64,000 bases of DNA from Prolixibacteraceae bacterium. GTDB taxonomy: Bacteria; Bacteroidota; Bacteroidia; Bacteroidales; Prolixibacteraceae. The notes below the pieces were generated by a model that saw only the letters and a list, made by a program, of their open reading frames with translations, searched no databases and was not told the origin of the DNA. The stretch covers positions 1-64,000 of the forward strand of contig JAQUIJ010000019.1 of NCBI GenBank assembly GCA_028683385.1, written 5' to 3'. Positions within the stretch are counted from its first letter, which is position 1, and each line of letters starts with the position of its first letter. The position numbers and the translations under genes are program-made. Below, in pieces: positions 28,798 to 64,000 of this stretch.

Positions 28798-29946
28798 TTA
28801 AAAAACAGGCGTTAAATTACTGATCCCGAGACCAGGTTTATCAATCAACGAAATTTTTCCATCAACAACCTGAACTCCGGAATACGGATCGTTTGAAATC
28901 AGCAGGTTGCCATCCAGATCGGCCCAATCAGTTTTTGGAGATAGCTGTGCTGCTGCTGAAATGGCGCACGAAGTTTCGGTCATACAACCAATCATCACTT
29001 TCATTTCCAGCGACCTGGCCAATATCAGCATTTGATGTGCTTCCCGCATGCCGGTACATTTCATCAGCTTGATGTTTATTCCGGAATAAACGCCTTTAGC
29101 CTTAATTACATCGTGTAGCCGTTGTACCGATTCATCGCCAATAGTTGGTAACGGGCTGTTCTCTGTGAGCCATGCCATATCGTCGATAGCCGTTTTAGGC
29201 ATCGGTTGCTCAACAAAAACGACTCCTTTTTCTTTGAGCCAGTGAATCATTTCAAGAGCCTTGTTCTTGTCAGTCCAGCCTTGATTCACATCCACACAAA
29301 GCGGAACATTCGTTGATGAGCGTATGGTCTCAATCATTTCCTTATCGGTAGCCATTCCAAGCTTTACTTTCAGTATTTTATACGGAGCCGCTTCGGCAAC
29401 TTTTTGCCGAACCACTTCCGGAGTATCGATACCTATGGTGAACGACGTATTTGGCGTATCAGCCGGATCGAAGCCCCATATTTTATACCACGGTTGCCCC
29501 ATTATCTTGCCTACCAAATCGTGCAAAGCAATATCAATTGAGGCTTTTGCAGCGCAATTGCCAGGCATTACCGAATCGACATAAGCCAGAATATCGTCCA
29601 TCTGAAACGGATCTTTAAACTGCCCCAAATCGAGCGCTGAAAGAAATTTGGTTGCAGAATCTACACTTTCGCCCAGGTAAGGCGGCATGGAAGCTTCACC
29701 ATATCCGACAAGGCCGTCAAATTCAATGCGTGTGAGCATATCCGGAGTAGTCTTCCGCGAACTGTTGGCAATCGTAAACGTATGCTTCAAGGCTAAATCA
29801 TGAGGCAAAAAACTCAATTTCAAACCCTTTCCTGAATGTTTCATTTTTGTGTCTTTCGTACTTGCAAAAACAGATTCAAATCCGGCAACACCTACCAATG
29901 TTGATAAACTGGCGGTTCGTATAAAATTACGTCGGCTATGTGTCAT
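28798..29946 (-). CDS. exported dipeptide epimerase (enolase superfamily)
   Basis: L-Ala-D/L-Glu epimerase-like protein of 382 aa. A twin-arginine signal (MTHSRRNFIRTASLSTLVGVAGFESVFA) suggests Tat export, unlike the cytoplasmic E. coli YcjG and B. subtilis YkfB. The catalytic features of the muconate-lactonizing subgroup are present: KILKVKLG (Lys-x-Lys base), CVDVNQGW, VFVEQPMP and GDESV (three metal ligands), INIKLMKCTG (second Lys) and DLDGNLLISNDP (the Asp-x-Asp typical of dipeptide epimerases). It would convert the L-Ala-D-Glu left from murein peptides. It starts 15 bp after the NlpC/P60 gene, an arrangement like ykfB-ykfC. Confidence 0.9.
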   Translation of the reverse strand: MTHSRRNFIRTASLSTLVGVAGFESVFASTKDTKMKHSGKGLKLSFLPHDLALKHTFTIANSSRKTTPDMLTRIEFDGLVGYGEASMPPYLGESVDSATKFLSALDLGQFKDPFQMDDILAYVDSVMPGNCAAKASIDIALHDLVGKIMGQPWYKIWGFDPADTPNTSFTIGIDTPEVVRQKVAEAAPYKILKVKLGMATDKEMIETIRSSTNVPLCVDVNQGWTDKNKALEMIHWLKEKGVVFVEQPMPKTAIDDMAWLTENSPLPTIGDESVQRLHDVIKAKGVYSGINIKLMKCTGMREAHQMLILARSLEMKVMIGCMTETSCAISAAAQLSPKTDWADLDGNLLISNDPYSGVQVVDGKISLIDKPGLGISNLTPVF

Positions 29947-29961
29947 TTTGAATAGTGATTT

Positions 29962-31152
29962 TTATTGATTGATGATTGAATACCACGGATGATTCTTAAC
30001 CTGAACAATTCCATCGGTATTCAATGAAGTTAATACCCGGCTTGAGCCAACCAGAATCTGGTGTAATCTATCGTTATACAATTGATCGGCAGGATCGAGG
30101 CTATTGACATGAACGAATCCGGATGAATGAATATATAGACCATTGCCCATGTATAAAGCAACATGCGTAACCCGTTTACTTCCGAAGAAAAGCAGATCGC
30201 CAGGCATCAGATTTCTGAAATCGGTAAAATCGGGATGTTGCCCATAACGAACTTGCTGTGAAGCGTCGCGCGCTAAAATAATTCCCTGCGAATAATAGGA
30301 TGTTTTCGTCAGACCTGAGCAATCGGTAGCTTTGCAGGAAGTGCCACCCCACAAATACGGAATCCCATTCAATTGCTTGGCAACCGATAAAACAGACTGA
30401 ACATCAATTGGCCGGTTTGTCCATTCCTGAAAAGAAAGGCAATCACTTTTTTTCACAAAAGCCGTTCGTCCATCGGGAAACCGAACCTGCAAAAACCCCT
30501 TGGTTTCGGAAATAGATTCGAATAGATTGTCGAGAACCAAATCAGATACATGGGAAGCATTTTTCTTAGGAGCCGAAAGCGCATAACCTACAGTTTTATT
30601 ATAAACAAACCGCTTGCTTTGTTTCCATTCCTTCATTTCCGCTTCAGTTTTAAGTGCGATCCCTGCATCCTCAGCCCAGCCAATGTACTGGTCAGGTGAT
30701 TGAATTCGATACCAGCCATTTTTCACTTCCAATACCTTTACTGGCACACCCATCAAAATCTGAGTGGCCATTTCGGCTGCTTCTCTTGGCTCGAAGCGCA
30801 TATTAACAACAGAAAGTGTTGCCAAACCCCAAACCTTGTCTCCTAAAGATGCCTCAGGAAAAACCCGGATAGAATCGACAAACTGAATTCCTTTGGCTGC
30901 AAGTAATTGGGCAACCTGTTTTTTCCCTTCCGGAAGGTTGGTTTCGCCTTTCACGGTTATTGGCCGCTGCAAAGTGTCTTTCAGTAAAACATTTAAAATT
31001 GCAACCCGTTTATCAGGAACAAGCTGTTTTTGAATCAGCTGAATCTCAGCGTTCAATGATTTGAAAGTTGTTGTTTGCGCATCAACTTTGAGCCCTATGG
31101 ATATAACAAGCAGAACTACAAAACCTATTTTACTAAAAATGTTTTTCATCAT
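29962..31152 (-). CDS. NlpC/P60 (C40) peptidase with SH3-like domains
   Basis: Secreted 396-aa murein peptidase. The signal peptide (1-25) is followed by an N-terminal region and two bacterial SH3-like modules (about 105-255). The C40 domain then has GIPYLWGGTSCKATDCSGL (Cys at about 278), RVTHVALYMGN (His at about 330) and YIHSSG (His at about 342), so the catalytic triad is complete. The architecture matches YkfC-type gamma-D-glutamyl-L-diamino acid endopeptidases, which release L-Ala-D-Glu. The epimerase for that dipeptide is the next gene. It lies about 250 bp downstream of susD, past a hairpin, and probably forms the distal part of that operon. Confidence 0.92.
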   Translation of the reverse strand: MMKNIFSKIGFVVLLVISIGLKVDAQTTTFKSLNAEIQLIQKQLVPDKRVAILNVLLKDTLQRPITVKGETNLPEGKKQVAQLLAAKGIQFVDSIRVFPEASLGDKVWGLATLSVVNMRFEPREAAEMATQILMGVPVKVLEVKNGWYRIQSPDQYIGWAEDAGIALKTEAEMKEWKQSKRFVYNKTVGYALSAPKKNASHVSDLVLDNLFESISETKGFLQVRFPDGRTAFVKKSDCLSFQEWTNRPIDVQSVLSVAKQLNGIPYLWGGTSCKATDCSGLTKTSYYSQGIILARDASQQVRYGQHPDFTDFRNLMPGDLLFFGSKRVTHVALYMGNGLYIHSSGFVHVNSLDPADQLYNDRLHQILVGSSRVLTSLNTDGIVQVKNHPWYSIINQ

Positions 31153-31399: not shown

Positions 31400-32974
31400 T
31401 TATTTTACAACGTCCCACCAAACTGGTTTCGTCATATAATCAGTATCAAACACTCCAAAAGGACGAACCTTTTCTGCGTTGTAATCGCGTTCCATGTATG
31501 CCATCTGGTATCTGCGTATATAATCTTTTGAAGTTGGGAAGTTTAGAGCATACGCAAATTTCGGACGATCAAATCCTTTATATACCCCAGCACTTTCATT
31601 ATAAACGCCTGATGCATCGGTACAATAGTCACATCTTCTTAAGTCAGTCCAAACTTCAGGACTGTAAGTAAGTGTAATGTATTTCTGAATCATGATGTGG
31701 CTAAGCGTTAATTCATCGGCAGTTTGAGCTACAGCAGCACTTGAAAGAAATGCATCCCTTTCGGTAGGAGTACAGCCTAACTTGTCGATATTTGCTTTGA
31801 TTGCTTCTTTATAAGCAGCAAGCGCTTCTGTTTTACTTCCCTTCCTGAAATAAACCTCGGCCGCAATAAACTTAGCTTCAGAATAAGTCATGTAATCAAA
31901 AGGCGAATCTTGTTGGGTATAGAAAAGCTTGTTGCTGTCCGTCGATTTCAATCCCACGTAATTTGCGTTGGTCGATTTCGGATCAACATCTGTAGTTGTA
32001 AGATCAACTCCGTAACTGTATTTGCCAATATTTGTTCCTGAAATGATCTTAGGGATCAGCTTTTTTGCACGAGGATCTTCTACTCCACTATTCCAACTAC
32101 TACCTGTTCCAGGTAAAGTATTCAATAAGTATTGAGTCCAAAGTTTTCCAGGCTTAACACTTGCTGAAGTGTTTTGGTACTGAATCGCATTTTGATTCGA
32201 AACTGTACTGACAAGGTATTTCAGCTCAGCGTCATCAGCATTAGATGCGAAGGATTTTGACAACAAGCTTAAAATCGCATCCGGGTTGTATTGCAATAAG
32301 TCTGTTCCTTTGGTCTTTTTAGATAAATGGCTCATTAACCTGGCTTTAACACCATAAGCAAATTTGATCCATTTTTGAGTATCTCCCTTGTAAATAATAT
32401 CACCAGTGCTTAACAAAGGAGCAGTAGCAGCCTGAGTCTTTTGAAGATCGGCAATAGCTTCGTCACACAATGGAAGAATCTGGCTGTAAACATATTCCGC
32501 ATCATCGTAATCAGGCAGAAATGTTGCATCGGATAAACCTTGCTGATAAGCCATAATACCATAGGCATCAACCACAAAACCACAACCAAAAGCTTGCATA
32601 ATTTTACCTACACCAACATAATGCCAGGCTTCAGCAGCTTCGGCATCAGCTATCATTTTTGAAATATTAATCCAGCTATAGATGTACCACGATTGCCATA
32701 CATAGGTATCTGCGTTATTCAGGAAATGCCAATTCTGTAATTCGTAGTATCTTGCATTGGCACTGTAAATGTATCCCATTTGTTGGCACAGCATGGCAGT
32801 CCGGACGCCGTGGCTTCCGTAAATATCCATGGTATAACTCAGAATACTGGGAAGACGTAATTCAGGCGAAGCCGTTTGGGGTGTATTGGGTGATGTATTT
32901 ATATCCAGGTTATAATCACACGAAGTGACAATTAAACCTATCGTTACCAGAAATATTAGTGTTAACTTTCTCAT
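31400..32974 (-). CDS. SusD-like outer-membrane lipoprotein (pair 2)
   Basis: SusD-like lipoprotein of 524 aa with lipobox Cys at residue 19 (LIVTSCDYNLDINTSPNTPQ). The NTSPN...SPELRLPSIL start is typical of the SusD_2 subgroup. The body is helical (DLTTTDVDPKST..., SEAKFIAAEVYFRKGSKTEALAAYKEAIKANIDKLG), and the end has the family-like EVWTDLRRCDYC...RPKFAYALNFPTSKDYIRRYQMAYMERDYN. It is 11 bp downstream of its susC partner. The NlpC/P60 and epimerase genes that follow suggest that it binds murein fragments or peptides. The ligand is inferred from context only. Confidence 0.92.
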   Translation of the reverse strand: MRKLTLIFLVTIGLIVTSCDYNLDINTSPNTPQTASPELRLPSILSYTMDIYGSHGVRTAMLCQQMGYIYSANARYYELQNWHFLNNADTYVWQSWYIYSWINISKMIADAEAAEAWHYVGVGKIMQAFGCGFVVDAYGIMAYQQGLSDATFLPDYDDAEYVYSQILPLCDEAIADLQKTQAATAPLLSTGDIIYKGDTQKWIKFAYGVKARLMSHLSKKTKGTDLLQYNPDAILSLLSKSFASNADDAELKYLVSTVSNQNAIQYQNTSASVKPGKLWTQYLLNTLPGTGSSWNSGVEDPRAKKLIPKIISGTNIGKYSYGVDLTTTDVDPKSTNANYVGLKSTDSNKLFYTQQDSPFDYMTYSEAKFIAAEVYFRKGSKTEALAAYKEAIKANIDKLGCTPTERDAFLSSAAVAQTADELTLSHIMIQKYITLTYSPEVWTDLRRCDYCTDASGVYNESAGVYKGFDRPKFAYALNFPTSKDYIRRYQMAYMERDYNAEKVRPFGVFDTDYMTKPVWWDVVK

Positions 32975-32985
32975 ATGCTTATTTC

Positions 32986-35900
32986 TTAAAATTTAAGATT
33001 AAAACCTAACGAATAACTGCGGGTTGCTGGAACTCCGGCATAATCAATCCCTGAAGATCCTGCTCCTACAACGCCTGCTCCTCCAGCACTTACTTCAGGA
33101 TCCATTCCTTTGTAATTCGTAATTATAAAAAGATTGGTTGCCATTATGGAAACATCAATGCTTTTTACAAAACCGATTTTTTTGCAGACATAATCAGGCA
33201 ATTTATATCCAAGAGAAGCTGTTCTTAATCTGAACCAGTTTACATCAGTAATGAAATTTGATGCTTCAGCACTATAAATATTCTTGTAGTAATTTTCGTT
33301 TAATACCACCGTACTTGATTTTGGTTCGTACGCTCCGGTTGTTGAATTAAGTGTTACTCCTTCGAATGTATAGTTTTCGCCACGTTTTTCAGTTTCTTTA
33401 CTTAAACCGGTTTTAACCATTGCCCATTCAGTAGCATTATATACAGCTCCACCTTTTCGGATGTCAATCAGGAATGAAAGGTTCCAGTTTTTGTAAGCAA
33501 TGTTGTTGTTTAATCCCAAAATAACATCGGGTTCGCGGTTGCCTACCAACTTGGTTGCATCGGTTGATGTGAGTGGGTAACCCGTAATTGGATCCAAAAT
33601 CAACTGACCATCAGTTGTTCTTTGCCATTTCTGACCGGTAAGACCAAGAAAGTCTCCGTTATTAACTGATGCAGGTTTTGCAGGCCCAATTTGCACATCG
33701 GTAACGTAAAGCAATTCCAATCCGGTTGGAAGGTTGTACACCTTGCCATCGTTGTGAGAAATATTTACGTTTAAATCCCATTTCAGATTTTGAGTTTGAA
33801 TTGGAACGGCATTAACGGTGATTTCATAACCCTTATTTTCTACAGTTCCCCAATTCACATACTTGAAAATATAACCAATCGCGTTGCTCACACGGGGTTG
33901 AATAATCTGATCATCACTCGTTGTCTTATAATAAGTCAAATCAACACCCAAACGACCTTTCAGGAAACGTAAATCGACACCATATTCCTGAGCAGTTGTA
34001 GTTTCAGGTTTCAAGTCAGGATTACCACCCGTCCAACTGTCGTTATAACCTCCACCAATTGTGGTAACAGGAGAATTTAAATAAGTAGCTGTTTGATAAA
34101 CAGGTGCATCTTTACCTACCTGCGACCATGATGCACGCAACTTACCAAAACTAAGTACATTTCTGAACCGTTCGTTGAGAAGCTCAGTAAATACGAAACT
34201 TCCGTTGAACGATGGATAAAAGAACGAACGGTTTTCAGGAGACAAAGTTGATGACCAGTCGTTACGACCAGTTACCCCAAGGAAGGCTATGTTTTTATAA
34301 TCCAAACGGAATTCTCCAAATACACTTGTCAATCGTTTTTGCGATTTGTAACTGTCAAATGCCTTATTGGCAGCTGCAGCATTGTTAATACTGATAAAAT
34401 CAGAGCTTAACATCCCAACAGCTGTTTGAGTGTTGTTCGAATACGTCGTTTGCTCATAGTTATGACCAACCAGAAGGTTAAGGTCGAAACTATTTATTTT
34501 TTGATTCGCCGAAACCGTCAACGTTGATGACAACAAATCGTTTTGACGAAGTTTTTCTGAAACAGCTCCTTTATCATATGGTGCAATCATAGCTGCCCCA
34601 GGACTGGTAATACTTTGATTAAATGAATTGTAATGATCGACACCGGCACGATATACTACATCAAGCCACTTAACCGGTGAAACCTTCACATAACCCGATC
34701 CAATAAAACGATGCAATTCTTCTGTCACCGGATTATTTCGTACCAACCAATTTGGATTGTCAATATCATCTTGCAGAGCAACTCCAGGCAACAATCTTCT
34801 TTTAACGCCATTTTCAGTCCAGTTAGCCATGTTATCTGTTCTTGGCCAGTTAATAATACTCAGCATATAGCCAGTACCGCCAGTTCCATACAATCCATCG
34901 CCGGTAAGCGTTTTTGTTGTGGTAGAATAAATATAATTGGTGTTCATTCCAATCGTAAACCAACCGCGTTTCTGTTCTCCGTTAAAACGGAACGAATTCT
35001 TCACATAATCGGTAGTTGGCACAATACCTTTTTGGTCTAGACGCTGAACCGACATAAAATAGTTCGCATTCTCAGTTCCCCCTGAAATACTTCCATTCAC
35101 GTCATAAGCCCATGCTTGCTGAAAAAAGTCCTTCATGTTGTTATAAAATGGTTGACCAGAAGCTACTTTTTCTCCCCATGATTCGCCTGTATCAGCATTA
35201 AAAGCGCCACCGCTTCCTTGTCCGTATAACCCTTGTTGCTCCGGAAGTCGACTAACTACATCGAGCTTCATTTTAGAACTAACGGAGATTTGTGGCACTC
35301 CTTGTTTTCCCTTTTTGGTAGTAATAACAACCGCACCTGCAGCGGCTTTTAATCCATAAAGAGCTGCTGCTGCCGGTCCTTTCAATACCGAAATTGATTC
35401 GATGTCAGCAGAGTTCAAGTCCATTGCCCTATTACCACTTGAAGTAGAAGTAGCCGTAACCCTGTCAGTTCCGGAGTTACCTGAAGAGGTAGAGTTATCA
35501 ATTGGAACACCGTCAATCACAAATAAAGGCTGGTTATCGCCCAACAGCGAGGTTCCTCCACGAATGATAATCTGCGATGAAGATCCAGGAGCACCGCCCG
35601 AATTGGTAATATTTACCCCTGCAATTTTACCGTTTAGCGAATTCACCAAATTAGCTTCCTTAACGCGGACCAACTCTTCACCTTTCACATCTTGAACAGA
35701 GTAGCCCAGCGCTTTCGTTTGTCTCATGATTCCCATCGCTGTAACAACAACTTCATCAACTTTCTCAGAAGCTGATTCCAAAAAAACTTCAATAGTTGAG
35801 CTTGCCCCAATTTTAACTTCTTGGGTTGACATTCCAATGTAACTTACGGATAATGTTGCATTGTTATTTACTGATAATTGAAACTCACCTTTGGAGTTAC

Positions 35901-36060
35901 TGGCAGTTCCGTTGGTTGTACCTTTTTCAACAATTGTTACACCAGGAAGAAGGTCATTGGTCACCTTATCCCGAACGACTCCCGAGATAGATCGTTTTTG
36001 CGCCATTGCCATCTGCACAATCAGGCACAAAATAAAGATTAATGATACCGTTTTTTTCAT
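32986..36060 (-). CDS. SusC-family TonB-dependent transporter (pair 2)
   Basis: Outer-membrane transporter of 1024 aa. The signal peptide is MKKTVSLIFILCLIVQMAMA. A carboxypeptidase-regulatory-like domain (SGVVRDKVTNDLLPGVTIVEKGTTNGTASN) is followed by the plug (VDEVVVTAMGIMRQTKALGYSVQDV; ISVLKGPAAAALYGLKAAAGAVVITTKKG) and a barrel ending in Phe. Its signal peptide and first ~90 residues are strikingly similar to those of the SusC at 40327-43719, while the barrels differ. The upstream regions also share the leader sequence and a 20-bp element, so both are probably under the same control. Confidence 0.95.
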   Translation of the reverse strand: MKKTVSLIFILCLIVQMAMAQKRSISGVVRDKVTNDLLPGVTIVEKGTTNGTASNSKGEFQLSVNNNATLSVSYIGMSTQEVKIGASSTIEVFLESASEKVDEVVVTAMGIMRQTKALGYSVQDVKGEELVRVKEANLVNSLNGKIAGVNITNSGGAPGSSSQIIIRGGTSLLGDNQPLFVIDGVPIDNSTSSGNSGTDRVTATSTSSGNRAMDLNSADIESISVLKGPAAAALYGLKAAAGAVVITTKKGKQGVPQISVSSKMKLDVVSRLPEQQGLYGQGSGGAFNADTGESWGEKVASGQPFYNNMKDFFQQAWAYDVNGSISGGTENANYFMSVQRLDQKGIVPTTDYVKNSFRFNGEQKRGWFTIGMNTNYIYSTTTKTLTGDGLYGTGGTGYMLSIINWPRTDNMANWTENGVKRRLLPGVALQDDIDNPNWLVRNNPVTEELHRFIGSGYVKVSPVKWLDVVYRAGVDHYNSFNQSITSPGAAMIAPYDKGAVSEKLRQNDLLSSTLTVSANQKINSFDLNLLVGHNYEQTTYSNNTQTAVGMLSSDFISINNAAAANKAFDSYKSQKRLTSVFGEFRLDYKNIAFLGVTGRNDWSSTLSPENRSFFYPSFNGSFVFTELLNERFRNVLSFGKLRASWSQVGKDAPVYQTATYLNSPVTTIGGGYNDSWTGGNPDLKPETTTAQEYGVDLRFLKGRLGVDLTYYKTTSDDQIIQPRVSNAIGYIFKYVNWGTVENKGYEITVNAVPIQTQNLKWDLNVNISHNDGKVYNLPTGLELLYVTDVQIGPAKPASVNNGDFLGLTGQKWQRTTDGQLILDPITGYPLTSTDATKLVGNREPDVILGLNNNIAYKNWNLSFLIDIRKGGAVYNATEWAMVKTGLSKETEKRGENYTFEGVTLNSTTGAYEPKSSTVVLNENYYKNIYSAEASNFITDVNWFRLRTASLGYKLPDYVCKKIGFVKSIDVSIMATNLFIITNYKGMDPEVSAGGAGVVGAGSSGIDYAGVPATRSYSLGFNLKF

Positions 36061-36547: not shown

Positions 36548-38386
36548 TTATTCAAATTGAAGACAAGCGACTTGGCCATCGAGCGATGTTACCAAAATTT
36601 CATTTGCTGCAACAGGAGTAACCATATTAATCAAGGCATTCGACAATTTGTATTTCCATACCACTTCATGCGTTACTTTGCTAATAGCCACCACTACCCC
36701 ATTGCAGGTTGGAACAAAAATCAAATTACCATTTTCAACAATTGGTGACGGGCCAATTTCGTATCCCAAATCGGCAGGGCAGCTCCATGCTAATTTCTGT
36801 TCTGAAGTAGCCGTTTCGAAGGCCATCACATTTCCCTCAGTCATATTTTTGATATAAACCAGATTACCATCGGCAGAAATACCAATAGACTCGCGACAAG
36901 TGTACTTCTCTGAATCCCATATTTCAGCACCAGTTTTGGCATCCAGCGCAGTCATGTGACGGTCGGGAGCAACAATGAATATTTTTCCATTGGCAGCAAC
37001 CGGCCAAACAGCAGCCGGCGAAAGCATCCGGTTAGTGTATTTCTCGCGTTTCCAAAGAAGTTTTCCGGTTTGCTGATCTAGCGCGTAAAACACGTTTCCC
37101 CACGAGCCAAAATAAACTGCGTTCTCATAAATCAGTGGTTTTGACTCCACAAAATTCTTTACCTCATCAAATTGCCACTTTAGCTTACCTGTCTTCAGAT
37201 CGATTGCCCGAAAAATTCCCTCAGAGGAACCAATAAAAACAGTTTCCCGATCGATAACAGGCGAGCCAACAATAGGTTTTCCTGTTTCGAATTTCCACTT
37301 CGGTTTGCCTGTTTTCAGGTTCAGACAATAAATAGTATTATCGGTCGATGCACAAACGACCAGACCATCGTTTATTGCCGGCGTAGAGTATATTTTTCCT
37401 GAAGTTGAGAAGTGCCAGAGGAGTTTCCCAGACTTTTGCCGTACTACCACTATTTCGCCTTTGGTATTGGCATAAACAGCCAGTTTACCTTCAACAGAAA
37501 TCCCAGTCCCGATATCGCTACTTTCCTGAAATTGCCATTTTACTTTTACCTGTGGGTATTTCTCATTCACCGAGAAATCAGGACGAGGCCATTTCCGTTG
37601 TTCTTGCTGATACTCTTTCAAGCCAAGTGGTACTTTGCACCAAGCTGGCAGGCTTTTTACTCCGGGAGTGCGTTCTGCATAATACATCGTATCCTGAGAA
37701 ACTGTAACGATATTGTAACCACCAATTTCATTTATTGCCCGAAGATTAGAACGTCCCATAACACCTGGAATTCCTTCAAAATCGAACAATTTGTTAGTAT
37801 GTCCATGACCGAGTAAACTCACCTGGACATTTCGGGTTTTGAGCAGATCAATCACCTCATACCAATTCGACAAGGACTCATCGAGCGGATAGTGATTAAT
37901 AAAAATAATAGGCTGTTTCGGATCTTTCATGTTCTTCAGGATCGATTCCAGAAAAACAATTTGCTCGCGCGGCACCAAACCCGGCGCCATACGCATATTG
38001 GGGCCACTGGCAGTGCCAACAAATAAAAATCCGTTTTTTTCGAATGAAAAACTTTCAGCACCAAAAATCCGCACAAAATCATTGTTCCCACTTTCAGACC
38101 ATTTCGAATCGTGATTACCGGGTATCGTGTAACACGGTTTATTGAGCTTACTGAGAATGGATTTGGCTTCGAGAAGTTCTTTCTCAGAGCCAAATTCAGT
38201 CACATCGCCCGACAAAATCACAAAGTCAAGATCAGTCTGCCTGTTAATATCATCAACGGTTCTGATAAGATCTTCAGCGCCAGTGCTTCCTCCTACGTGT
38301 GTATCGGTAACATGGGCAAAGCGGAAGGTTTGAGCCTGTGCCTGAATCAGGAAAAAGCAAAGAAATAGTATGAATAATTGTCTCAT
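36548..38386 (-). CDS. secreted metallophosphoesterase fused to a PQQ-like beta-propeller
   Basis: The 612-aa protein has a signal peptide (1-18) and a calcineurin-like phosphoesterase domain (about 20-240). All metal motifs are present: HVTDTHVG, LSGDVTEFG, PGNHDSK, INHYPL and LGHGHTN. A beta-propeller of PQQ/quinoprotein-like repeats follows (about 285-610; repeated G...W.F.T...I.S.P.i.dg.Vv.gs...LDlKTGKlkW). The propeller probably binds a partner or substrate rather than a cofactor. It is the third gene after susCD pair 3, past a terminator. Its substrate is unknown; a periplasmic phosphomonoesterase or diesterase role for phosphorylated cell-wall sugars is conceivable. Confidence 0.88.
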   Translation of the reverse strand: MRQLFILFLCFFLIQAQAQTFRFAHVTDTHVGGSTGAEDLIRTVDDINRQTDLDFVILSGDVTEFGSEKELLEAKSILSKLNKPCYTIPGNHDSKWSESGNNDFVRIFGAESFSFEKNGFLFVGTASGPNMRMAPGLVPREQIVFLESILKNMKDPKQPIIFINHYPLDESLSNWYEVIDLLKTRNVQVSLLGHGHTNKLFDFEGIPGVMGRSNLRAINEIGGYNIVTVSQDTMYYAERTPGVKSLPAWCKVPLGLKEYQQEQRKWPRPDFSVNEKYPQVKVKWQFQESSDIGTGISVEGKLAVYANTKGEIVVVRQKSGKLLWHFSTSGKIYSTPAINDGLVVCASTDNTIYCLNLKTGKPKWKFETGKPIVGSPVIDRETVFIGSSEGIFRAIDLKTGKLKWQFDEVKNFVESKPLIYENAVYFGSWGNVFYALDQQTGKLLWKREKYTNRMLSPAAVWPVAANGKIFIVAPDRHMTALDAKTGAEIWDSEKYTCRESIGISADGNLVYIKNMTEGNVMAFETATSEQKLAWSCPADLGYEIGPSPIVENGNLIFVPTCNGVVVAISKVTHEVVWKYKLSNALINMVTPVAANEILVTSLDGQVACLQFE

Positions 38387-54716: not shown

Positions 54717-54784
54717 TCCGTCCGAAATAAGATTTGAGCTTTTAGCAAGTTCAACGCGCGGACGGTGGAATTGATGATCCTTTA

Positions 54785-54845: not shown

Positions 54846-54967
54846 AATAAACAACTGCCTTTGATTGCCTTCAAATTTTATCATTTTATCAATTCGTTCA
54901 TTCATGTATATACTTTAACAAATCGCAACCCAATCTTTCCCCCATTTGGGGGAATAAGAAGGGGGCT

Positions 54968-56077
54968 TTATACTTTTATAAATATCTTCCTTTTATACAG
55001 CACATAACCAATCATCCAAAAGAACACCACATGTGCAATGGCGTAAAGCAAAGAACCATTAATGTCGCCTGCCAACGGTAGAAAAACATCACGATAAAGT
55101 TTGGCCGAACCACTGATGACTTTTCCATCGGGATCGGTAAACTGAACCAAGCGTCCCAATGTTTTAGCCCACAATCCGGAGAGCGCGAAGATGAACAGCG
55201 GGTTCATCCCAAATACCACGAAAAATGAAGTCCATCTGGAATAGCCTTTTAAGTCGATGATCCAGATCAACAAAGCCAATACTGAACACGCCCATCCTGC
55301 GGTATAAAGAACATACGAACTGCTCCAGATTGCTTTATTAATCGGGAAGAAAAAGCCCCAAAGCAAGCCAGAAGCAACCGCGACAATACCAACAAGCAAT
55401 AATTTTTTTGGTACCGAAGTCTTTTCGGCTTCTTTCACAACTGAGCCAATTAAATAACCCAGAATTACAGTCACCACTGCCGGTATCGTGCTTAGCAGCC
55501 CTTCCGGATCAAACGGGATTCCAAATCCTTTATACAGATGAGTAACTCCGAGAACCGCAGAATCAAATGAAATGGTCGCATTTCCCTCAAGCGAAAAAGG
55601 ATCGGAACCTCCCAAAACATACATTAATCCCCAATAAAAAAGCAGAATCGCGAAACCAATGTAAGGCAAATACTTGCGTGGAGAGGCCAGAACGATTACT
55701 GCACCAATTCCATAAGCCAGCGCAATTCGCTGCAAAACGCCCATAATGCGCAGCTTCGAATAATCGGTTGCCCATTGTGGAAATGAATTAAGGAACAGGC
55801 CAATGGCAAAAATCAGGAGTGTCCGTTTACCTATTTTCAGGAGCGATTCTTTATTCAACGTATTTCCGTACTTCGAGAAAGAGAAGAACATGGAAACCCC
55901 GACCACAAAGAGAAAGAACGGAAAAACCAAATCGGTGGGTGTACATCCGTTCCATTTGGCATGTTCCAAAGGCGCATAAATATGAGTCCAACTCCCGGGA
56001 TTATTCACCAGGATCATCAAAGCGACGGTCATGCCGCGCAGAACATCAAGAGCGAGGTAACGTTGCGTTGTCTTCAT
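54968..56077 (-). CDS. DUF5009 (HGSNAT-like) polytopic membrane protein
   Basis: The 369-aa membrane protein has about 10 hydrophobic segments. It starts MKTTQRYLALDVLRGMTVALMILVNNPGSWTHIYAPLEHAKWNGCTPTDLVFPFFLFVVGVSMFFS, the signature of the DUF1624/DUF5009 group related to heparan-alpha-glucosaminide N-acetyltransferase. The family is often encoded beside hexosamine-use genes in Bacteroidota. Possible roles are acetyl transfer across the membrane to glucosamine, or sugar transport. The MurNAc transporter MurT of Tannerella should be compared. It overlaps the symporter gene by 32 bp, so the two are translationally coupled. Confidence 0.88.
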   Translation of the reverse strand: MKTTQRYLALDVLRGMTVALMILVNNPGSWTHIYAPLEHAKWNGCTPTDLVFPFFLFVVGVSMFFSFSKYGNTLNKESLLKIGKRTLLIFAIGLFLNSFPQWATDYSKLRIMGVLQRIALAYGIGAVIVLASPRKYLPYIGFAILLFYWGLMYVLGGSDPFSLEGNATISFDSAVLGVTHLYKGFGIPFDPEGLLSTIPAVVTVILGYLIGSVVKEAEKTSVPKKLLLVGIVAVASGLLWGFFFPINKAIWSSSYVLYTAGWACSVLALLIWIIDLKGYSRWTSFFVVFGMNPLFIFALSGLWAKTLGRLVQFTDPDGKVISGSAKLYRDVFLPLAGDINGSLLYAIAHVVFFWMIGYVLYKRKIFIKV

Positions 56078-57521
56078 TCGGTATATTTTGTTTTTTAGTT
56101 AGTAGCAGCAAACCCACAAACATGATCAGCCCATTCAGGAGCAACAATTCGAAGCCAAATTTATACCCGCCCAACCAGGCTTCGGAATTGGCGTTGATGA
56201 TGTAGGTTAGTACCGGCGACAGCAATCCAACCAGCGGAACGTAGCGGTCATTCACCTTTTTCTTCGTCAGTATTCCGAAAGCAAAAAGGCCAAGCAGCGG
56301 GCCGTACGTGTACCCGGCGACTTTGAAAACTGCGGTAACCACGCTTTCATCGTTGATGATCCTGAAAAGCACAATCACCAAAAACATCAGGATTGAAAAA
56401 CCAACATGAACTTTGATCCGGGTAAATTTGCTCTCTGGCTTTTTCGTATCCAGGTTCAGAAAGTCAATGCAGAACGAAGTTGTCAGAGCTGTTAATGCTG
56501 AGTCGGAGCTTGAATACGTGACTGAAACAATGCCCAGTAAAAACAATATCCCAGCAAAAGTTCCAAAATAATTCAAGGCCAAAAGCGGGAAAAAATCGTC
56601 GGTTTTCTCCGGAATGGCAATTCCCTGTTGTTGGGCGAAAACATAAAGCAAAACACCAAGACTCAGGAATAACACATTGACAACAATAAATGCCAGACTA
56701 AACCAAAACAGGTTTTTCTGGGCATCGTGCTTATTTTTACACGTCAAACTCTTCTGCATAATGTCCTGATCCAAACCATTCATCACAATTACAATTCCAA
56801 GTCCGGACAGGAATTGCTTGAAGAAATTAGTTTTCGAACGCCAATCCCAGTCGAAAATTTTACTGAAAGGGTGCTCGTCGATGACTTTAACCATCTTAAA
56901 CGCACTCAAATCAAGTTGCCTCGATATGATGAAAATTGTTAATACCAAAGAAGCAAGCAAAAAAGTAGTTTGAAGTGAGTCAGTCCAGATGATGGTTTTA
57001 ATCCCGGCGCGAAATGTATAAGCCAAAATCATAAAAATAGCAATGGCAACGGTTACCGCGAAAGGAATTCCAAGCGCATCGAAAAAAGCAAGTTGCAGCA
57101 CTCCGGCTACCAGATACATGCGAAATGCCGCACCAATAGTGCGCGAAACAAGGAAAAAGAATGAGCCTGTTTTATACGACCGCACACCAAATCGCTGATC
57201 GAGATAAGTGTAAATTGAAATGAGTTGCAGTTTGTAATAAAGTGGGATAAGTACCAAAGCAACCACCCAGTAACCGGCAAAGTTACCCAGCAGAAATTGC
57301 AGGTAAGTCCAACCAGAACGACCAACCTCTCCCGGAACTGAAATAAAGGTTACTCCTGAAATCGTGGTTCCAATCATGGCAAAAGCCACCATGTACCATT
57401 TGGATTTGCGGTTTCCGGTGAAAAATGTTTCGTTGTTCACATTCTTCGAGGTTAAATATGAAATGCCAAACAGCAATCCAAAAAAACAAACCAGCACTAT
57501 AAATAAAATGGTTGTACTCAT
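56046..57521 (-). CDS. sodium:solute symporter (SSS family)
   Basis: Inner-membrane Na+-coupled transporter of 491 aa with about 13 membrane segments. The N-terminal TSKNVNNETFFTGNRKSKWYMVAFAMIGTTISGVTFISVPGEVG and the central RAGIKTIIWTDSLQTTFLLASL are characteristic, as is SVTYSSSDSALTALTTSFCIDF (Na+-site region). Relatives carry sialic acid, sugars or other organic solutes. Paired with the DUF5009 gene and near NamZ and kinase genes, it may import MurNAc, GlcNAc or a peptide. Start is ATG. Confidence 0.92.
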   Translation of the reverse strand: MSTTILFIVLVCFFGLLFGISYLTSKNVNNETFFTGNRKSKWYMVAFAMIGTTISGVTFISVPGEVGRSGWTYLQFLLGNFAGYWVVALVLIPLYYKLQLISIYTYLDQRFGVRSYKTGSFFFLVSRTIGAAFRMYLVAGVLQLAFFDALGIPFAVTVAIAIFMILAYTFRAGIKTIIWTDSLQTTFLLASLVLTIFIISRQLDLSAFKMVKVIDEHPFSKIFDWDWRSKTNFFKQFLSGLGIVIVMNGLDQDIMQKSLTCKNKHDAQKNLFWFSLAFIVVNVLFLSLGVLLYVFAQQQGIAIPEKTDDFFPLLALNYFGTFAGILFLLGIVSVTYSSSDSALTALTTSFCIDFLNLDTKKPESKFTRIKVHVGFSILMFLVIVLFRIINDESVVTAVFKVAGYTYGPLLGLFAFGILTKKKVNDRYVPLVGLLSPVLTYIINANSEAWLGGYKFGFELLLLNGLIMFVGLLLLTKKQNIPNEDNATLPRS

Positions 57522-58453: not shown

Positions 58454-59911
58454 TTAAAGATATTTTACTTCCATGTCCCAATTCCATTGGTTAAAATAGA
58501 GGTTACCACCCTCCCACTCCAGTTCGCCACGCTGAAAATCGTACGGTTCGCTGCGTGGAAATTTCTTCTCCGGAGTTAATTTCCGGCTGTAATCATCATT
58601 CACAATCAAGCGGTAGGCGTCAATTCCTGAACGGTAAAAATTACGAATTTTCGAATCCGGACTAGCTTGCAAACCAAACGACTGGTCGAGCGGAACCCAA
58701 CCAATGCCTTCGTAATACACTTCGCACCAGTCGTGCAGGTTAACTTCACGCGGATGAAGCATCCAGCCACTTTGCCATTTCACCGGAATGCCCTGCGAAC
58801 GCGCCAATGTCATGAACAGCAAGGTTTGCATTCCACAATCGCCGTGGTGAGTTTTCAGTACATATCCCGGAATATCCGACATCGTGCTGTATTCGAGCGC
58901 ACTGGCCCACCGAACCGAATCGTTGATCCAGTTATATATTTTCTGAACTTTTAACATTGGATTGGTTTCGCCTCCCAATATCCGGTTAGCAAGCTGCTTT
59001 ATTTGGGGGGTGAACACGATTTGCGGAAGCCGTTCCTTCGTATTTTCCTTGTAAACTGAACTTTCGGTATTGTACGGTTTAATTTTCGCCGGCTCCAGAT
59101 CAAAGTATTGAGCAGCGGTTTCAACCTCAAATTCAATCTGAAAAACGGTTGGCTGATCTTTCACCGCTTTCTTTTCCAGATAAACCGCGTGCTGAAGGTC
59201 GCTTTCGGGAGCACCCATCGCTTTTTCAGGATCAGATTTCAGCAGATTGATGTTCTTCTGCCTTGCATGTCCTTCCCTCGGAAACGGCATCCAGCAGCGA
59301 ATAATCCGGCCATCAGGAACCGCATTGGGCTTGGCTTTCACCGTATAGGTCAATTTCATGCGCACGGGCAAAACCGGTTCTCCTGAAGTTTTGGTTGCTG
59401 AAATTACTTTTGAGGTGTGCTGCAAACAAAACAAATCAAGCGAATCAACCTGAAAACCATCGACTTTTTCTTTGAATTTCCGTGCCTCATCATCGAGCCG
59501 AAACAAGTTGGGCACAGCATTTTTGAAATAGCGTTTCTCGCTGTCAATCGTGCGCATCTCAAGTTTCAGTGCATGTTCCCAGTTCTGCATTTCTGTAGGG
59601 TTCAGGTCAGGAAAATATTTTGCAAGCTGACTTTTCACATCCGATTCGGTTAACCGAAAATCGAGCCGAATGCGGCGGCCAATATCAACGATAGAATCCA
59701 TTTTATACAAATCAGCCGCTCCCAAACCGCCCATTGCTTTTAGCGAATCAGCAATCATTTCTGCCTTTTTCAGTTCTCCGGAAGCCACAAGTTGCTCAAC
59801 ACTGGTCAGATTAACCGGGGTTTTAGGCACAGGAGTGCAGGCAACAAAAAAGACTCCGACTAAGAGCAAGTTCCTGATGATCTTCGGCGATTGGGAGATT
59901 CGATTCTTCAT
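58454..59911 (-). CDS. transglutaminase-like lipoprotein
   Basis: The 485-aa lipoprotein has lipobox Cys at 25 (GVFFVACTPVP). The N-terminal half has no recognised domain. The C-terminal half carries a transglutaminase core with Cys359 (HHGDCGMQTLLFMTLARSQGIPVKWQSG), His393 (NLHDWCEVYY) and Asp409 (WVPLDQSFGL), so the triad is complete. Bacterial members act as peptidases or amidases as often as crosslinkers. Lying between the DJ-1 and KilA-N genes near murein hydrolases, it might process peptides. It is separated from the KilA-N gene by 24 bp. Confidence 0.9.
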   Translation of the reverse strand: MKNRISQSPKIIRNLLLVGVFFVACTPVPKTPVNLTSVEQLVASGELKKAEMIADSLKAMGGLGAADLYKMDSIVDIGRRIRLDFRLTESDVKSQLAKYFPDLNPTEMQNWEHALKLEMRTIDSEKRYFKNAVPNLFRLDDEARKFKEKVDGFQVDSLDLFCLQHTSKVISATKTSGEPVLPVRMKLTYTVKAKPNAVPDGRIIRCWMPFPREGHARQKNINLLKSDPEKAMGAPESDLQHAVYLEKKAVKDQPTVFQIEFEVETAAQYFDLEPAKIKPYNTESSVYKENTKERLPQIVFTPQIKQLANRILGGETNPMLKVQKIYNWINDSVRWASALEYSTMSDIPGYVLKTHHGDCGMQTLLFMTLARSQGIPVKWQSGWMLHPREVNLHDWCEVYYEGIGWVPLDQSFGLQASPDSKIRNFYRSGIDAYRLIVNDDYSRKLTPEKKFPRSEPYDFQRGELEWEGGNLYFNQWNWDMEVKYL

Positions 59912-60771: not shown

Positions 60772-63231
60772 TTAAAACCGTTCAGCAGAATATCCTTTTT
60801 TCTTCAGCCATGAAAGAAGTTCGCCCAACCGATTGTAAAACTTATCAGTACGCGCTGGTTCTGTTCCCATATGAATCAGCATGATGCAGCCGTTCAGTCC
60901 ATTCGGGTCATTCTTCTCAAAAGTCTGGATGTCGTTCAAAATCGTTTCCGAAGAGCGATAACCAGTCATATCCGGTGTGGTGTAATCGGCATTCGAGCGG
61001 ATACCCGGTGTAAAATTGATCACTTTCAAGCCCATTTGCCCACTCCAGTCAACACTCTCAGCATTGTACCATTCGTACGGAGGTAAAAATACCGAAGCTT
61101 TTTCGGCAGTCAAACCAAATGCTCCCATCTTTTTGTAATTCAATTTCAAATCGTCGGAGAACTGCTTTTGAGTAACCAGCGTCGAATCACGCTTCGTCCA
61201 GTCGGCATACAGCAAATGGCCATCGGAGTGCGCTCCCAGATAATGACCATCAGCAATCAATTCGTTTATGAGTGATTTATTTTCCGGATTGTTATAGAAA
61301 GTTCCCGTCAGGAAAAATGAACCTTTGGCTTTGTTTTTTTTCAAAGTTTGAGCAATTAGATGTCCTCCTTCGCCTAATTCGTGAGCCGAAAAAATCAGGT
61401 ACACTTTCTTTTCAGCCGGATTTTTCCGTACCAAAGCACCCTGATTGTCCAAAACATCTCCTGAAGTATGACCTTCAACTTCGAGCGACGAAAGCAGGTA
61501 ACTCAGGCTGGCCGTTCCGTCCATAGTTGGTTCATTGGTCGAATAATCACCAATATCGTCGTGATAAACTGCTTTCCCATCCTGAAATTCAGGATACTGA
61601 TCGGCTCTCAACAAACGGATTCCGAGCAAACTCTTATAAATGCTGGTATAAACCGGACCATCAACCAAACCGCCGGTTGTGGTTTTATTCAGGTAAAGCG
61701 TAATCGCCGAATGTGGTTTTTCTGGATAATCGCCCCCAGCCGGAAGTCCGCATATCATTGATGTTCCCCATGGATTACAACCAAACAGCCAATCAGTTAA
61801 AGCAACCTCCATTTCTTCGTAAGTATTGTCACCGGTAATTTTCCGGTACAATTTAGCCTGAGTGATGGCTGCTGCCACAAAATTATTGGAGCACCAAACA
61901 AACGGAACGCCAATCCGGAACGGATCATTTCCGGCATATTTCCGAATTTGATCGAGTCCCTGTTTCATCAAAGCGGCAAACTGTTTGGCAATCACCGGAT
62001 CGGATGACTGCGCCAATAAAGCGTGGCCCAGATTCACAAACGGATAATACTGGTAATGCCGGGCACGGTTCAGTTCCATCCAGGGCGTTACTGGTTCCAA
62101 CTCGCCCCAGTATTTGGCTTCTTTCTGAAAATCAGTCTGCTTTTCTGTCGGAATTAGTGTCGCGGCTGCCAGTTCCATGTCGTCAACCCAATTGTCCTCT
62201 TCGTAAAAATATGGCGAAACCATGCAAGCTGTCTGGAAATTTCCCAGATCGGATTTAGCAAAATCCCAGGCGTCACGTGACTTCTGAAGCATCTGATCTG
62301 CAAACTTCGGATCAATGTCTTTAAACACAGAAGCACCCAAAGCAAACGACGAACTGAATTTAGCTGCCGTTGACGAAACGCCTGTCGAGCGATTTTTATA
62401 TTTACCCAATCCCTGCGATTTCCCGGTCACAAAATAAACCGGTCGGTACACTCCCAATCCGTAACCACCCAACGTATCCAAGGTAGGAATCCGAAATCCG
62501 GCGTGATCACGATCATCGGCAATCTGGTTGTACATCTCGTTTTTCGCCGGATTCATTTTCAGGAGCCATTCCAAACCCCAGCGGGCTTCGTCCAGGATAT
62601 CCGGGATTCCGTTGGCTCCCGGCTTGCCATTGGCGGCAAACTTATCGCCATAAACCGATGGGTTCTGCTGATAGGCAAACAGTAACTGATAAATGGCATT
62701 TGCAGAAGTTGTAGTGTATTGTAAATAATCAGAAGCATCGTGCCACCCCCCAATCACATCGATGTGCTGTCCGGTCTTGGTGGGATGATCGACAATAATT
62801 CCATCATGCGTGTGACACGAATCATTCAGGTACGGATTGAACCCGCAACGCTGTTGACGCATATAATTAAGAATGAAATCGGCAGTACCATTATAAACAT
62901 CAGGCGAGATACGAAACGACGGAGATACCGAGTTACCAGCCTTCAGGATAAAACCACCGGTTTGATGAAAAGTTGTAAAGTTAAGTCGGTAGGCTTTCTG
63001 TTTGCCCCAAATGCTGGCATCAGCAAGTTCCGGGGTGCCTTCAAAAACCAATTTTCCTGAAAGTGATTCGAACAACTGAAACTTAGTAAGTTCCTCATCC
63101 TGATCGGAAAGGAAAACTGCCACCTTAACCGATTGAGGTAAATAACCCATTTGATTGATACGAACTACCGTTGAAGCACTAATTTTCAACGAAATAAGAA
63201 AAATCATACTGATTAAGAAAAGAGTTCTCAT
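60772..63231 (-). CDS. GH9 glycosidase fused to a polysaccharide deacetylase-like domain
   Basis: Secreted enzyme of 819 aa. The signal peptide (1-19) is followed by a CelD_N Ig-like domain (about 20-110) and a GH9 (alpha/alpha)6 barrel (about 120-590). The barrel has GGWHDASDYLQY (the Asp pair), ITLYLNKTTTGGLVDGPVYTS, and DDIGDYSTNEPTMDGTASLSYLLSSL (Asn-Glu with the acid Glu). The C-terminal ~200 aa are a NodB-like domain. HSDGH (metal histidines), FLPPYEWYN and LIHMG are present, but the usual TFDDG reads IFSAHELGEGG, so the base/metal Asp pair is altered. GH9 includes exo-glucosaminidases as well as cellulases; next to an N-acetylhexosamine kinase, an amino-sugar substrate is likely. Confidence 0.88.
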   Translation of the reverse strand: MRTLFLISMIFLISLKISASTVVRINQMGYLPQSVKVAVFLSDQDEELTKFQLFESLSGKLVFEGTPELADASIWGKQKAYRLNFTTFHQTGGFILKAGNSVSPSFRISPDVYNGTADFILNYMRQQRCGFNPYLNDSCHTHDGIIVDHPTKTGQHIDVIGGWHDASDYLQYTTTSANAIYQLLFAYQQNPSVYGDKFAANGKPGANGIPDILDEARWGLEWLLKMNPAKNEMYNQIADDRDHAGFRIPTLDTLGGYGLGVYRPVYFVTGKSQGLGKYKNRSTGVSSTAAKFSSSFALGASVFKDIDPKFADQMLQKSRDAWDFAKSDLGNFQTACMVSPYFYEEDNWVDDMELAAATLIPTEKQTDFQKEAKYWGELEPVTPWMELNRARHYQYYPFVNLGHALLAQSSDPVIAKQFAALMKQGLDQIRKYAGNDPFRIGVPFVWCSNNFVAAAITQAKLYRKITGDNTYEEMEVALTDWLFGCNPWGTSMICGLPAGGDYPEKPHSAITLYLNKTTTGGLVDGPVYTSIYKSLLGIRLLRADQYPEFQDGKAVYHDDIGDYSTNEPTMDGTASLSYLLSSLEVEGHTSGDVLDNQGALVRKNPAEKKVYLIFSAHELGEGGHLIAQTLKKNKAKGSFFLTGTFYNNPENKSLINELIADGHYLGAHSDGHLLYADWTKRDSTLVTQKQFSDDLKLNYKKMGAFGLTAEKASVFLPPYEWYNAESVDWSGQMGLKVINFTPGIRSNADYTTPDMTGYRSSETILNDIQTFEKNDPNGLNGCIMLIHMGTEPARTDKFYNRLGELLSWLKKKGYSAERF

Positions 63232-63491
63232 AGCTTCCGTGGTCTTTAAGTATTGGAATCAGTATTTCGGAAAAACAACTTACATTTCATAAAGATACAA
63301 ATCAATTGAACATAGACTGTTCTGTAAGAAATTATTTAGGCTCTAGTTTCACGCGAAATAATGGATCAAAATTAGTGGAATTAATGAATCTTGCAAATAT
63401 TGGTAATACATGTTATATGATACATTTCATTTTTCGTCAAAATCCTTATCTTTGACACCGCAAACAAATGATCACCAATTTCGAATAATAA
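63232..63491. promoter_or_regulatory. divergent promoter region of the GH9 and kinase genes
   Basis: This 260-bp region holds the third copy of the shared 20-bp element (63397-63416) and, on the plus strand, TATCTTTG (63447-63454). The latter is an exact TAnnTTTG -7 box 38 bp before the kinase start codon. I did not find an exact box for the GH9 gene. Confidence 0.55.
63397..63416 (+). promoter_or_regulatory. shared 20-bp element, copy 3
   Basis: It reads ATATTGGTAATACATGTTAT and matches the element at 36262-36281 (its minus strand) at 17 of 20 positions, including the core TTGGTA.TACATGT. It lies about 30 bp upstream of the -7 box of the kinase gene, where a regulator could block or activate transcription. 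Confidence 0.55.
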
Positions 63492-64000
63492 ATGAGACTT
63501 ATTGCCGACAGTGGATCAACCAAAACCGCCTGGAAACAGATTGATGGTTCAGGCCACGTTAAAAACATTAAAACATCAGGACTCAACCCCTATTCGCAGC
63601 CAGAGGAAAGCATTTTTCAGGAAATTGAAAAGGTACTTTTCCCGGAAACCGGTACCGGAATTCAGGAAATCTATTTTTATGGAGCCGGAATTGTAAATGC
63701 AGAAAAGGGCGACATCATCCGCAGAGCGTTAAATCGTATTTATCCTGAAGCCATTGTGGAAACTCACAGCGATGTGTTGGGAGCTGCCCGTGCTTTATTT
63801 GGAGATCAGGCCGGGATTGCCTGCATTTTGGGCACAGGCTCGAATGCTTGTTTGTATGATGGTAAGCAAATTGCACATGGGATTTCTCCGCTAGGTTTTA
63901 TTTTAGGCGATGAAGGCAGCGGCTCAGTTATGGGACGAAAATTGCTTGGCGACTATTTTAAGGAAGTTATGCCTGCCCGGTTACGCGACGAATTTAGTAA
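63492..64000 (+). CDS. N-acetylhexosamine kinase, BadF/BcrA ATPase type (partial, cut by window end)
   Basis: Open frame from ATG at 63492 to the window end, 169 full codons, with no stop. It starts MRLIADSGSTKTAWKQID (phosphate-1 motif). Further motifs are FYGAGIVN, HSDVLGAARALFG, ACILGTGSNACLYDG (phosphate-2/GTGS) and GFILGDEGSGSVMGRKLL. These match the Bacteroidota GlcNAc/MurNAc kinases (MurK type) of the BadF/BadG/BcrA/BcrD ATPase family. It would phosphorylate the amino sugar released by the upstream hydrolases. In Tannerella the MurNAc kinase gene is adjacent to the etherase murQ; what follows here lies outside the window. Confidence 0.9.
   Translation, partial: MRLIADSGSTKTAWKQIDGSGHVKNIKTSGLNPYSQPEESIFQEIEKVLFPETGTGIQEIYFYGAGIVNAEKGDIIRRALNRIYPEAIVETHSDVLGAARALFGDQAGIACILGTGSNACLYDGKQIAHGISPLGFILGDEGSGSVMGRKLLGDYFKEVMPARLRDEFS

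Follow-up and report, generated by a model that had tools for sequence, protein, structure and literature searches.

The 64,000-nucleotide stretch of Prolixibacteraceae bacterium DNA analysed here (the window; positions 1 to 64,000 of contig JAQUIJ010000019.1, assembly GCA_028683385.1) carries two pairs of adjacent susC and susD genes among genes for the salvage of peptidoglycan (murein), and the question it raises is whether an outer-membrane SusC/SusD (SusCD) pair can be a dedicated importer of cell-wall fragments. Comparison across genomes makes it probable that one of the two pairs, SusCD_B, is such an importer, serving a murein-salvage locus for which a pathway is proposed below. The window lies on a 113,413-bp contig (C24) of a 5.9-Mb genome in 54 contigs, and the genes concerned form a minus-strand run from 28,798 to 63,231 together with the oppositely oriented murK and murQ, which occupy 63,492 to 65,173 (Table 1).

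As the genome holds about 38 SusD genes (29 PF07980 and 9 PF12771 matches (>80 bits) in 5.9 Mb, or roughly one per 155 kb), finding two SusCD pairs close together is little proof by itself, and we rejected the argument from a single genome as too weak. Loci were gathered by SusD sequence alone, and the best 80 of 307 relatives of SusD_B were scored for salvage markers (12 proteins in 11 kinds, at a threshold of at least 30% identity and at least 100 bits). A marker was found in 49 of these 80 loci and at least two kinds in 41, with a marker no more than two genes from the SusCD_B-type pair in 46. The markers were namZ (29 loci), nlpC (24), epimerase (22) and amiE (17), followed by ghl10, murT and murK (9 each), the xanthan-lyase-like gene (8), DUF4922 (7), and murQ and Amidase_3+AMIN (3 each). 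The loci come from Bacteroidales and also from Cyclobacteriaceae, Fulvivirgaceae, Flexithrix, Pedobacter, Terrimonas and Desertivirga, and their arrangements vary, from murT-amiE-susCD-namZ in Draconibacterium and murK-ghl10-susCD-amiE of the Cytophagales type to nlpC-epimerase-susCD in several Bacteroidales and susCD opposite epimerase-nlpC in others; the linkage is therefore not one inherited block.

Control loci rarely carry such genes. Near 34 further SusD genes of this genome (omitting SusD_A and a third pair, with some control loci overlapping) a marker was found once and two kinds never, and around 40 SusD genes of ten genomes, which were hand-picked among the best PF07980 scorers listed and so lean to typical SusD (2 of the 40 loci being shorter than 20 kb), a marker was found in 3 and at least two kinds in 1, giving 4 of 74 and 1 of 74 for all controls together. 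When the three discovery loci and loci shorter than 15 kb are left out, the difference persists for one marker (40/58 vs 4/74, Fisher p = 4e-15) and for at least two kinds (34/58 vs 1/74, p = 9e-15), kinship between loci being ignored in both tests. In an evenly drawn sample of the phylum, a separate draw whose species may overlap with the 80-locus set, a SusD_B-like protein (expect value (E) 1e-100) is present in 12 of 395 genomes, the window genome included, and the family is thus uncommon; 12 loci from the other eleven genomes carry a marker in nine cases and at least two kinds in six, some of their SusDs being just 36-40% identical to SusD_B. Enzymes linked to the pair, the mark of SusCD import of the polysaccharide utilization locus (PUL) type, are thus peptidoglycan enzymes in excess of the control SusD loci, and the co-occurrence of SusCD and salvage genes is beyond chance weakly within one genome and strongly across genomes. 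The third SusCD-like pair in the window, at 4,227-9,549, has a downstream protein that matches SusD-like_2. The control locus with two kinds (L216; 1-20000, genome G298) has a SusD other than SusD_B near murT, murK and murQ, possibly another salvage-linked SusCD.

The salvage enzymes of the locus retain conserved residues that we take to be catalytic. Its two NamZ-type exo-muramidases (NamZ being, we assume, the protein also called YbbC) score above the Pfam cut-offs and keep the Glu-His pair, E84-H85 in 25/25 relatives of NamZ1 (E 9.6e-175 against PDB 4k05) and E80-H81 in 52/52 relatives of NamZ2. The AmiE-like protein, which has no GH3 barrel, keeps S311, K314, Y433 and H596 in 37/37 relatives, and its residues 51-646 align at 45% with a 979-aa GH3-beta-lactamase fusion encoded on contig C42 (GH3 257.5 bits). 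In the NlpC/P60 endopeptidase (E 2.6e-62 against PDB 3npf) C278 and H330 are kept in 37/37 relatives and H342 in 29/37, and in the epimerase, whose best solved relative is 3iji (also 3ijl and 3ijq, E 1e-149), K193, K195, D219, E246, D271, K293 and the D343-x-D345 motif, presumably the mark of dipeptide epimerases, are kept in 34/34. The N-terminus of the epimerase resembles a twin-arginine translocation (Tat) signal, with R5 occupied by R in 25 and by K in 9 of 34 relatives and R6 by R in all 34, which fits the periplasmic peptide processing that the original prediction had proposed. The Amidase_3 protein that it had named scores just below the family cut-off, but H237, E260, H577 and E660 are retained in 16/16 aligned relatives. 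The cytoplasmic steps are represented by MurK, whose kinship rests on PDB matches (its BadF match is weak, at 26.6 bits against a cut-off of 31.5), and by MurQ, which exceeds the PRK05441 cut-off and scores just below that of TIGR00274 (295.7 vs 302); its gene stands directly after murK, just past 64,000, where it had been suggested to search. Candidate inner-membrane transporters are the HGSNAT_cat protein, which we take to be of the 'DUF5009'/MurT type (145.7 bits against the NagX model, far under its cut-off of 480), and the SSF symporter; nothing in the genome reaches the AmpG cut-off of 350 bits, the best piece scoring 102.5.

The original prediction had described a large, apparently complete muropeptide-salvage region. 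A murein-salvage region with periplasmic processing through to MurQ is supported, but 'complete' is too strong, as no clear AmpG was found and the gene for the GH3 N-acetylglucosaminidase-AmiE fusion is on a different contig. The genes it listed (two namZ, amiE-like, nlpC/P60, epimerase, symporter and two SusCD pairs) were all recovered by Pfam and NCBIfam, although the list had left out the GH9-deacetylase, KilA-N, GT2, DUF4922, phosphoesterase-PQQ, transglutaminase and DJ-1 genes. The minus-strand genes are transcribed in the order GH9-deacetylase, KilA-N, transglutaminase, DJ-1, SSF, MurT-like, Amidase_3-like, GT2, DUF4922, 154-aa protein, AmiE-like, NamZ1, NamZ2, SusC_B, SusD_B, phosphoesterase-PQQ, SusC_A, SusD_A, NlpC/P60 and epimerase; 3′ of murQ stand a gene for a TPR-PAS protein and then unrelated genes.

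Table 1. Features of the salvage region and its flanks (strand relative to the window; scores as Pfam or model bits)
Feature	Position	Strand	Evidence
GntR-FCD regulator, candidate regulator of the locus	27891..28622	+	Pfam GntR 73.7, FCD 84.7 bits
Dipeptide (L-Ala-D/L-Glu) epimerase, probably exported	28798..29946	-	MR_MLE_C 108.4 bits (cut-off 29.4)
NlpC/P60 endopeptidase with SH3 domain (dipeptidyl-peptidase VI type)	29962..31152	-	NLPC_P60 77.4 bits (cut-off 23)
SusD_A, surface lipoprotein	31400..32974	-	SusD-like_2 152.4 bits
SusC_A, TonB-dependent transporter	32986..36060	-	CarbopepD_reg_2, Plug, TonB barrel
Calcineurin-type phosphoesterase fused to PQQ-type propeller	36548..38386	-	Metallophos 64.6, PQQ_2 169.1 bits
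Predicted intrinsic terminator 3′ of susD_B	38416..38448	-	15-pair stem, 3-base loop, T run
SusD_B, surface lipoprotein	38473..40314	-	SusD_RagB 93.7 bits
SusC_B, TonB-dependent transporter paired with SusD_B	40327..43719	-	CarbopepD_reg_2, Plug, TonB barrel
NamZ2, exo-beta-N-acetylmuramidase family	44053..45255	-	NamZ_N 250.9 (cut-off 26.9), NamZ_C 123.6 bits
NamZ1, exo-beta-N-acetylmuramidase family	45272..46519	-	NamZ_N 295.3 (cut-off 26.9), NamZ_C 118.8 bits
AmiE-like N-acetylmuramoyl-L-alanine amidase, beta-lactamase fold	46532..48481	-	Beta-lactamase 148.8 bits (cut-off 27)
154-aa protein, conserved-block member	48478..48942	-	no Pfam match
DUF4922 protein	48944..49936	-	195.9 bits
GT2 glycosyltransferase-like protein	49995..51452	-	Glycos_transf_2 81.5 bits
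Golvesin_C + Amidase_3-like protein ('xanthan lyase' type)	51609..54905	-	Golvesin_C 102.3; Amidase_3 26.9 bits (cut-off 27)
MurT-like inner-membrane protein (HGSNAT_cat / DUF5009)	54968..56077	-	HGSNAT_cat 40.6 bits (cut-off 22)
SSF sodium:solute symporter	56046..57521	-	SSF 81.0 bits (cut-off 22.8)
Transglutaminase-fold lipoprotein	58454..59911	-	Transglut_core 72.6 bits
GH9 + polysaccharide-deacetylase-like protein	60772..63231	-	GH9 242.5, CelD_N 58.5, Polysacc_deac_1 43.4 bits
MurK-like amino-sugar kinase	63492..64331 (window ends 64000)	+	PDB 1zxo, 8oqw, 8ow9
MurQ	64340..65173	+	PRK05441 361.9 bits (cut-off 168)

From the gene content, the preserved catalytic residues and the repeated association of the SusCD_B family with salvage genes we infer a pathway in which the order of the steps, their locations and the SusCD_B cargo would be as follows. 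SusCD_B would take up soluble oligomers of N-acetylglucosamine (GlcNAc) and N-acetylmuramic acid (MurNAc), whether or not stem peptides are attached to them. In the periplasm, peptides would be removed from MurNAc by the Amidase_3-like and AmiE-like proteins and NamZ1 and NamZ2 would free MurNAc at glycan ends, while NlpC/P60 would release L-Ala-D-Glu for conversion to L-Ala-L-Glu by the exported epimerase. MurNAc may then enter the cytoplasm via the MurT-like protein, the SSF symporter or both, where MurK and then MurQ would convert it to GlcNAc-6-phosphate. Judged by the company it keeps, SusCD_B most likely imports glycan-containing peptidoglycan fragments, because markers of the sugar side occur no less often than those of the peptide side and some loci have only sugar-side markers plus an amidase.

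The same cannot be said with equal force of both pairs. The original prediction had given peptidoglycan uptake to the SusCD pairs of the region without distinction; for SusCD_B the comparative support is strong, whereas for SusCD_A the evidence is its linkage, and the case is much less certain. From the position of SusCD_A beside nlpC and the epimerase gene we would guess that it imports a related product, a peptide or a peptide-bearing fragment. SusC_A relatives (at least 40% identity) occur in 13/80 SusD_B loci, the solved SusDs nearest to SusD_A in sequence are proteins for mixed-linkage glucan (6e60, E 3.5e-17), and of the genus genomes examined G012 alone shares SusCD_A at this place with the window genome; G018 has a relative at 51% and G010 one at 42%. 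SusD_B was aligned in 44 rows (57-85% identity to the window protein), in which the lipobox-position C19 is invariant, and its structure model has a predicted template modelling score (pTM) of 0.81 and a mean predicted local distance difference test score (pLDDT) of 73.4, with loops 56-77 and 91-115 below 50. Naming a ligand by fold was tried and rejected, as the model matches many SusD folds (best 3qnk, E 3.5e-14) that do not point to any one ligand.

Within the genus, the slot between namZ2 and nlpC is occupied in different ways. Nineteen genomes with a namZ2 orthologue were counted, excluding G001 and G002 (no NamZ match) and G005 and G007 (just a 45-47% namZ2 relative), and susC is the next gene after namZ2 in 14 of them, as type B (6), C (3), D (3) or A-like (2), with no more than 45% identity between types. 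The SusC types are spread patchily over the namZ2 tree, which requires 9 changes between them where 6 is the minimum and shuffling gives a mean of 12.5; at branches with good support no fewer than three changes are needed for B and no fewer than two each for C and D, so cassettes were exchanged or lost several times. GHL10 proteins (215-239 bits) occur in type-B, C and D cassettes (L036, L037, L038, L042) and Amidase_3 + AMIN proteins (138.7 and 66.6 bits) in type-C cassettes (L038, L039). DigH of E. coli, which falls in the same Pfam family as the cassette GHL10 proteins (453 bits, 33% identity), breaks down denuded glycans according to the accessible part of its description (PMC12288456). 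Genus g2 (L072) has a further SusCD of its own, located after transglutaminase-nlpC-epimerase and opposite namZ1. Taken as a whole, we offer tentatively, with slightly less than even confidence, the joint proposal that SusCD_B founds a SusCD family across several Bacteroidota orders dedicated to the import of peptidoglycan glycan and that the namZ2-nlpC slot is an exchange site at which unrelated SusCD cassettes, every one bringing an amidase or a hydrolase of denuded glycan, replace one another to suit different murein chemistries.

Several observations weigh against SusCD_B as a dedicated murein importer. No marker was found at threshold in 31 of the 80 SusD_B loci, 18 of which are at least 15 kb long, nor in 3 of the 12 phylum-sample loci. 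The threshold explains part of this set, as L091 has an Amidase_3 protein (46.9 bits) by the pair, L086 a similar weak match and L122 a GH9-deacetylase relative; L118, L144, L145, L147-L150 and L152 have no salvage-type gene of any kind in the available stretch, and in L145 and L147-L150 (four from Pedobacter or uncultured Pedobacter, one from Sphingobacteriaceae) the genes nearby include a different SusCD and a peptidase S41. As the markerless loci are partly real, the SusD_B family may not share one substrate. In 5 of the 19 genus genomes nlpC and the epimerase gene directly follow namZ2 with no SusCD between, and the core salvage genes therefore need none at that place. The SusD_B model has no PDB neighbour that tells its substrate, and the presence of GH9 and phosphoesterase genes hints at possible substrates beyond peptidoglycan. 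If the SusCD pairs served ordinary polysaccharides and their position next to salvage genes were accidental or that of general envelope genes, markerless loci would be expected, and the abundance of SusD genes in the genome, the restricted placement of SusCD_A and the GH9 and GH95 (25,266-27,668) genes that flank the region would also be in keeping; we nevertheless consider this improbable in view of the excess of SusCD_B linkage over controls in many arrangements, a point that covers SusCD_B and not SusCD_A.

It is also conceivable that the importers are RagAB-like and carry murein peptides rather than glycan. SusC_B does match RagA (6sli, E 1.5e-52), nlpC and epimerase are among the commonest markers, and in L113 an M24 peptidase gene follows both SusCD_B and a SusCD_A relative, but SusC_B lies closer to the SusC homologue 8aa4 (E 3.9e-85), its best solved relative by sequence, the sugar-step markers are frequent too, and L108, L114, L119 and L138 have ghl10 and amiE by the pair with neither nlpC nor epimerase found in the available stretch, which makes a peptide cargo distinctly unlikely. 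Peptidoglycan recycling is common in bacteria, and the locus might recapture what the cell itself sheds into the medium during murein turnover, without any feeding on other bacteria. The presence of murA in the genome (440 bits), by which the organism is not an auxotroph of the Tannerella forsythia type and does not need MurNAc from outside, is in favour of this; a SusCD importer and the predicted secreted amidases of related cassettes would instead point to an outside polymer, and we regard recapture as rather unlikely. Murein salvage with SusCD_B as its importer is the reading we retain as the most likely.

The 35-kb region is probably not one operon, given the strong predicted terminator after susD_B and the location of murK and murQ on the other strand. 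That terminator and gaps of 333 and 487 bases upstream of the two susC genes make several transcription units likely. Terminator-like sites are not in overall excess in the region (19 vs a shuffled mean of 15.0, sd 3.6), the one after susD_B having the longest stem listed. Sigma-70-type promoters are not above shuffles (35 vs a mean of 35.5; 42 vs a mean of 48.2), and a single -33/-7 type match is at chance level, with at least one in 44/100 shuffles.

Other genes of the stretch accompany the SusD_B family to varying degrees. A gntR gene (at least 55% identity) is found in 11/80 SusD_B loci, a phosphoesterase-PQQ relative (at least 35%) in 25/80 and a GH9-deacetylase relative (at least 45%) in 8/80, each against 0/74 control loci. 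The GntR-FCD protein is a candidate MurNAc- or muropeptide-sensing regulator. Within the genus the phosphoesterase-PQQ protein is also linked with unrelated SusCD types; a teichoic-acid target for its cassette would be a guess, no second such phosphodiesterase having been found among the cassette genes scanned with Pfam, and an NAGPA phosphodiester glycosidase occurs in L072, from another genus. In the GH9-deacetylase protein the GH9 acidic residues are retained (13/13 and 15/15), and the first motif of the deacetylase half reads F-S-A-H-E, with His-Glu kept in 11/12 aligned relatives, where the usual motif is presumably Asp-rich; deacetylase activity is thus doubtful, and the protein may act on murein or on a further glycan. 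Relatives of the 154-aa protein (40-84%) hold the same place in 7 loci of other same-genus genomes (L045, L047, L054, L055, L056, L057, L080), and the transglutaminase-fold lipoprotein gene is retained in the block of same-genus genomes. The KilA-N gene (59936-60736), between the transglutaminase and GH9 genes, is absent there in the nearest relative G012 (L054) and so looks like a recent insertion. Several same-genus genomes have a URO-D (uroporphyrinogen decarboxylase-like) gene between namZ1 and namZ2 (e.g. L056:18250-19281), which the window does not.

The core of the locus (xanthan-lyase-like amidase, GT2, NamZ, MurT-like, MurK and MurQ) is not new, as it resembles the murein-salvage operon of T. 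forsythia. As far as its description is accessible, that operon (Tanf_08345-08385) comprises genes for a xanthan lyase, two glycosyltransferases, lytB, ampG, ybbC, murT, murK and murQ (PMC5388701), and by name, the only basis on which the proteins were compared, it shares with the window the xanthan-lyase-like protein, a glycosyltransferase, NamZ/YbbC, MurT, MurK and MurQ. Unlike it, the window has SusCD pairs, NlpC/P60, epimerase, SSF, AmiE-like and GH9-deacetylase genes, with murK and murQ on the opposite strand, whereas neither the AmpG nor the LytB gene of the operon was identified in the window. The term 'SusC' is absent from the available text of that paper (PMC5388701), and what is accessible of the T. 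forsythia papers deals with AmpG and MurT in the inner membrane and does not answer how large wall fragments pass the outer membrane.

The new part is the importer. With PUL SusCD systems the locus shares a TonB-dependent SusC and a lipoprotein SusD beside degradative enzymes, but here the enzymes target peptidoglycan; from what is accessible of one survey, the peptidoglycan families GH23, GH24, GH25 and GH73 are strongly under-represented in PULs, yet found in several (PMC6499787). RagAB has the same SusCD architecture, and RagB comes at rank 28 when the SusD_B model is compared by fold (E 3.5e-8), but RagAB carries peptides (the PDB entry is titled 'RagAB peptide transporter') and SusD_B is not a RagB orthologue by sequence, with no RagB match at E 0.001 or better. 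NanOU, in the accessible account, is a SusCD for sialic acid, a carboxylated amino sugar (PMC3969230), a likeness in cargo; the NanU model hits SusD_B at 35.6 bits, far below its cut-off of 425, so SusD_B is not NanU. In the available text of the openly licensed literature, including PMC13209645, PMC11382707, PMC6987092 and PMC12131861, we recognised no account of muropeptides or MurNAc being imported by a SusCD, and SusCD import with this class of cargo had not previously been assigned in the literature surveyed. A SusCD family strongly linked to salvage genes makes the step in which wall fragments cross the outer membrane testable, and if the reading is true, peptidoglycan, a major polymer of bacterial biomass and an immune signal, would join the targets of dedicated SusCD importers.

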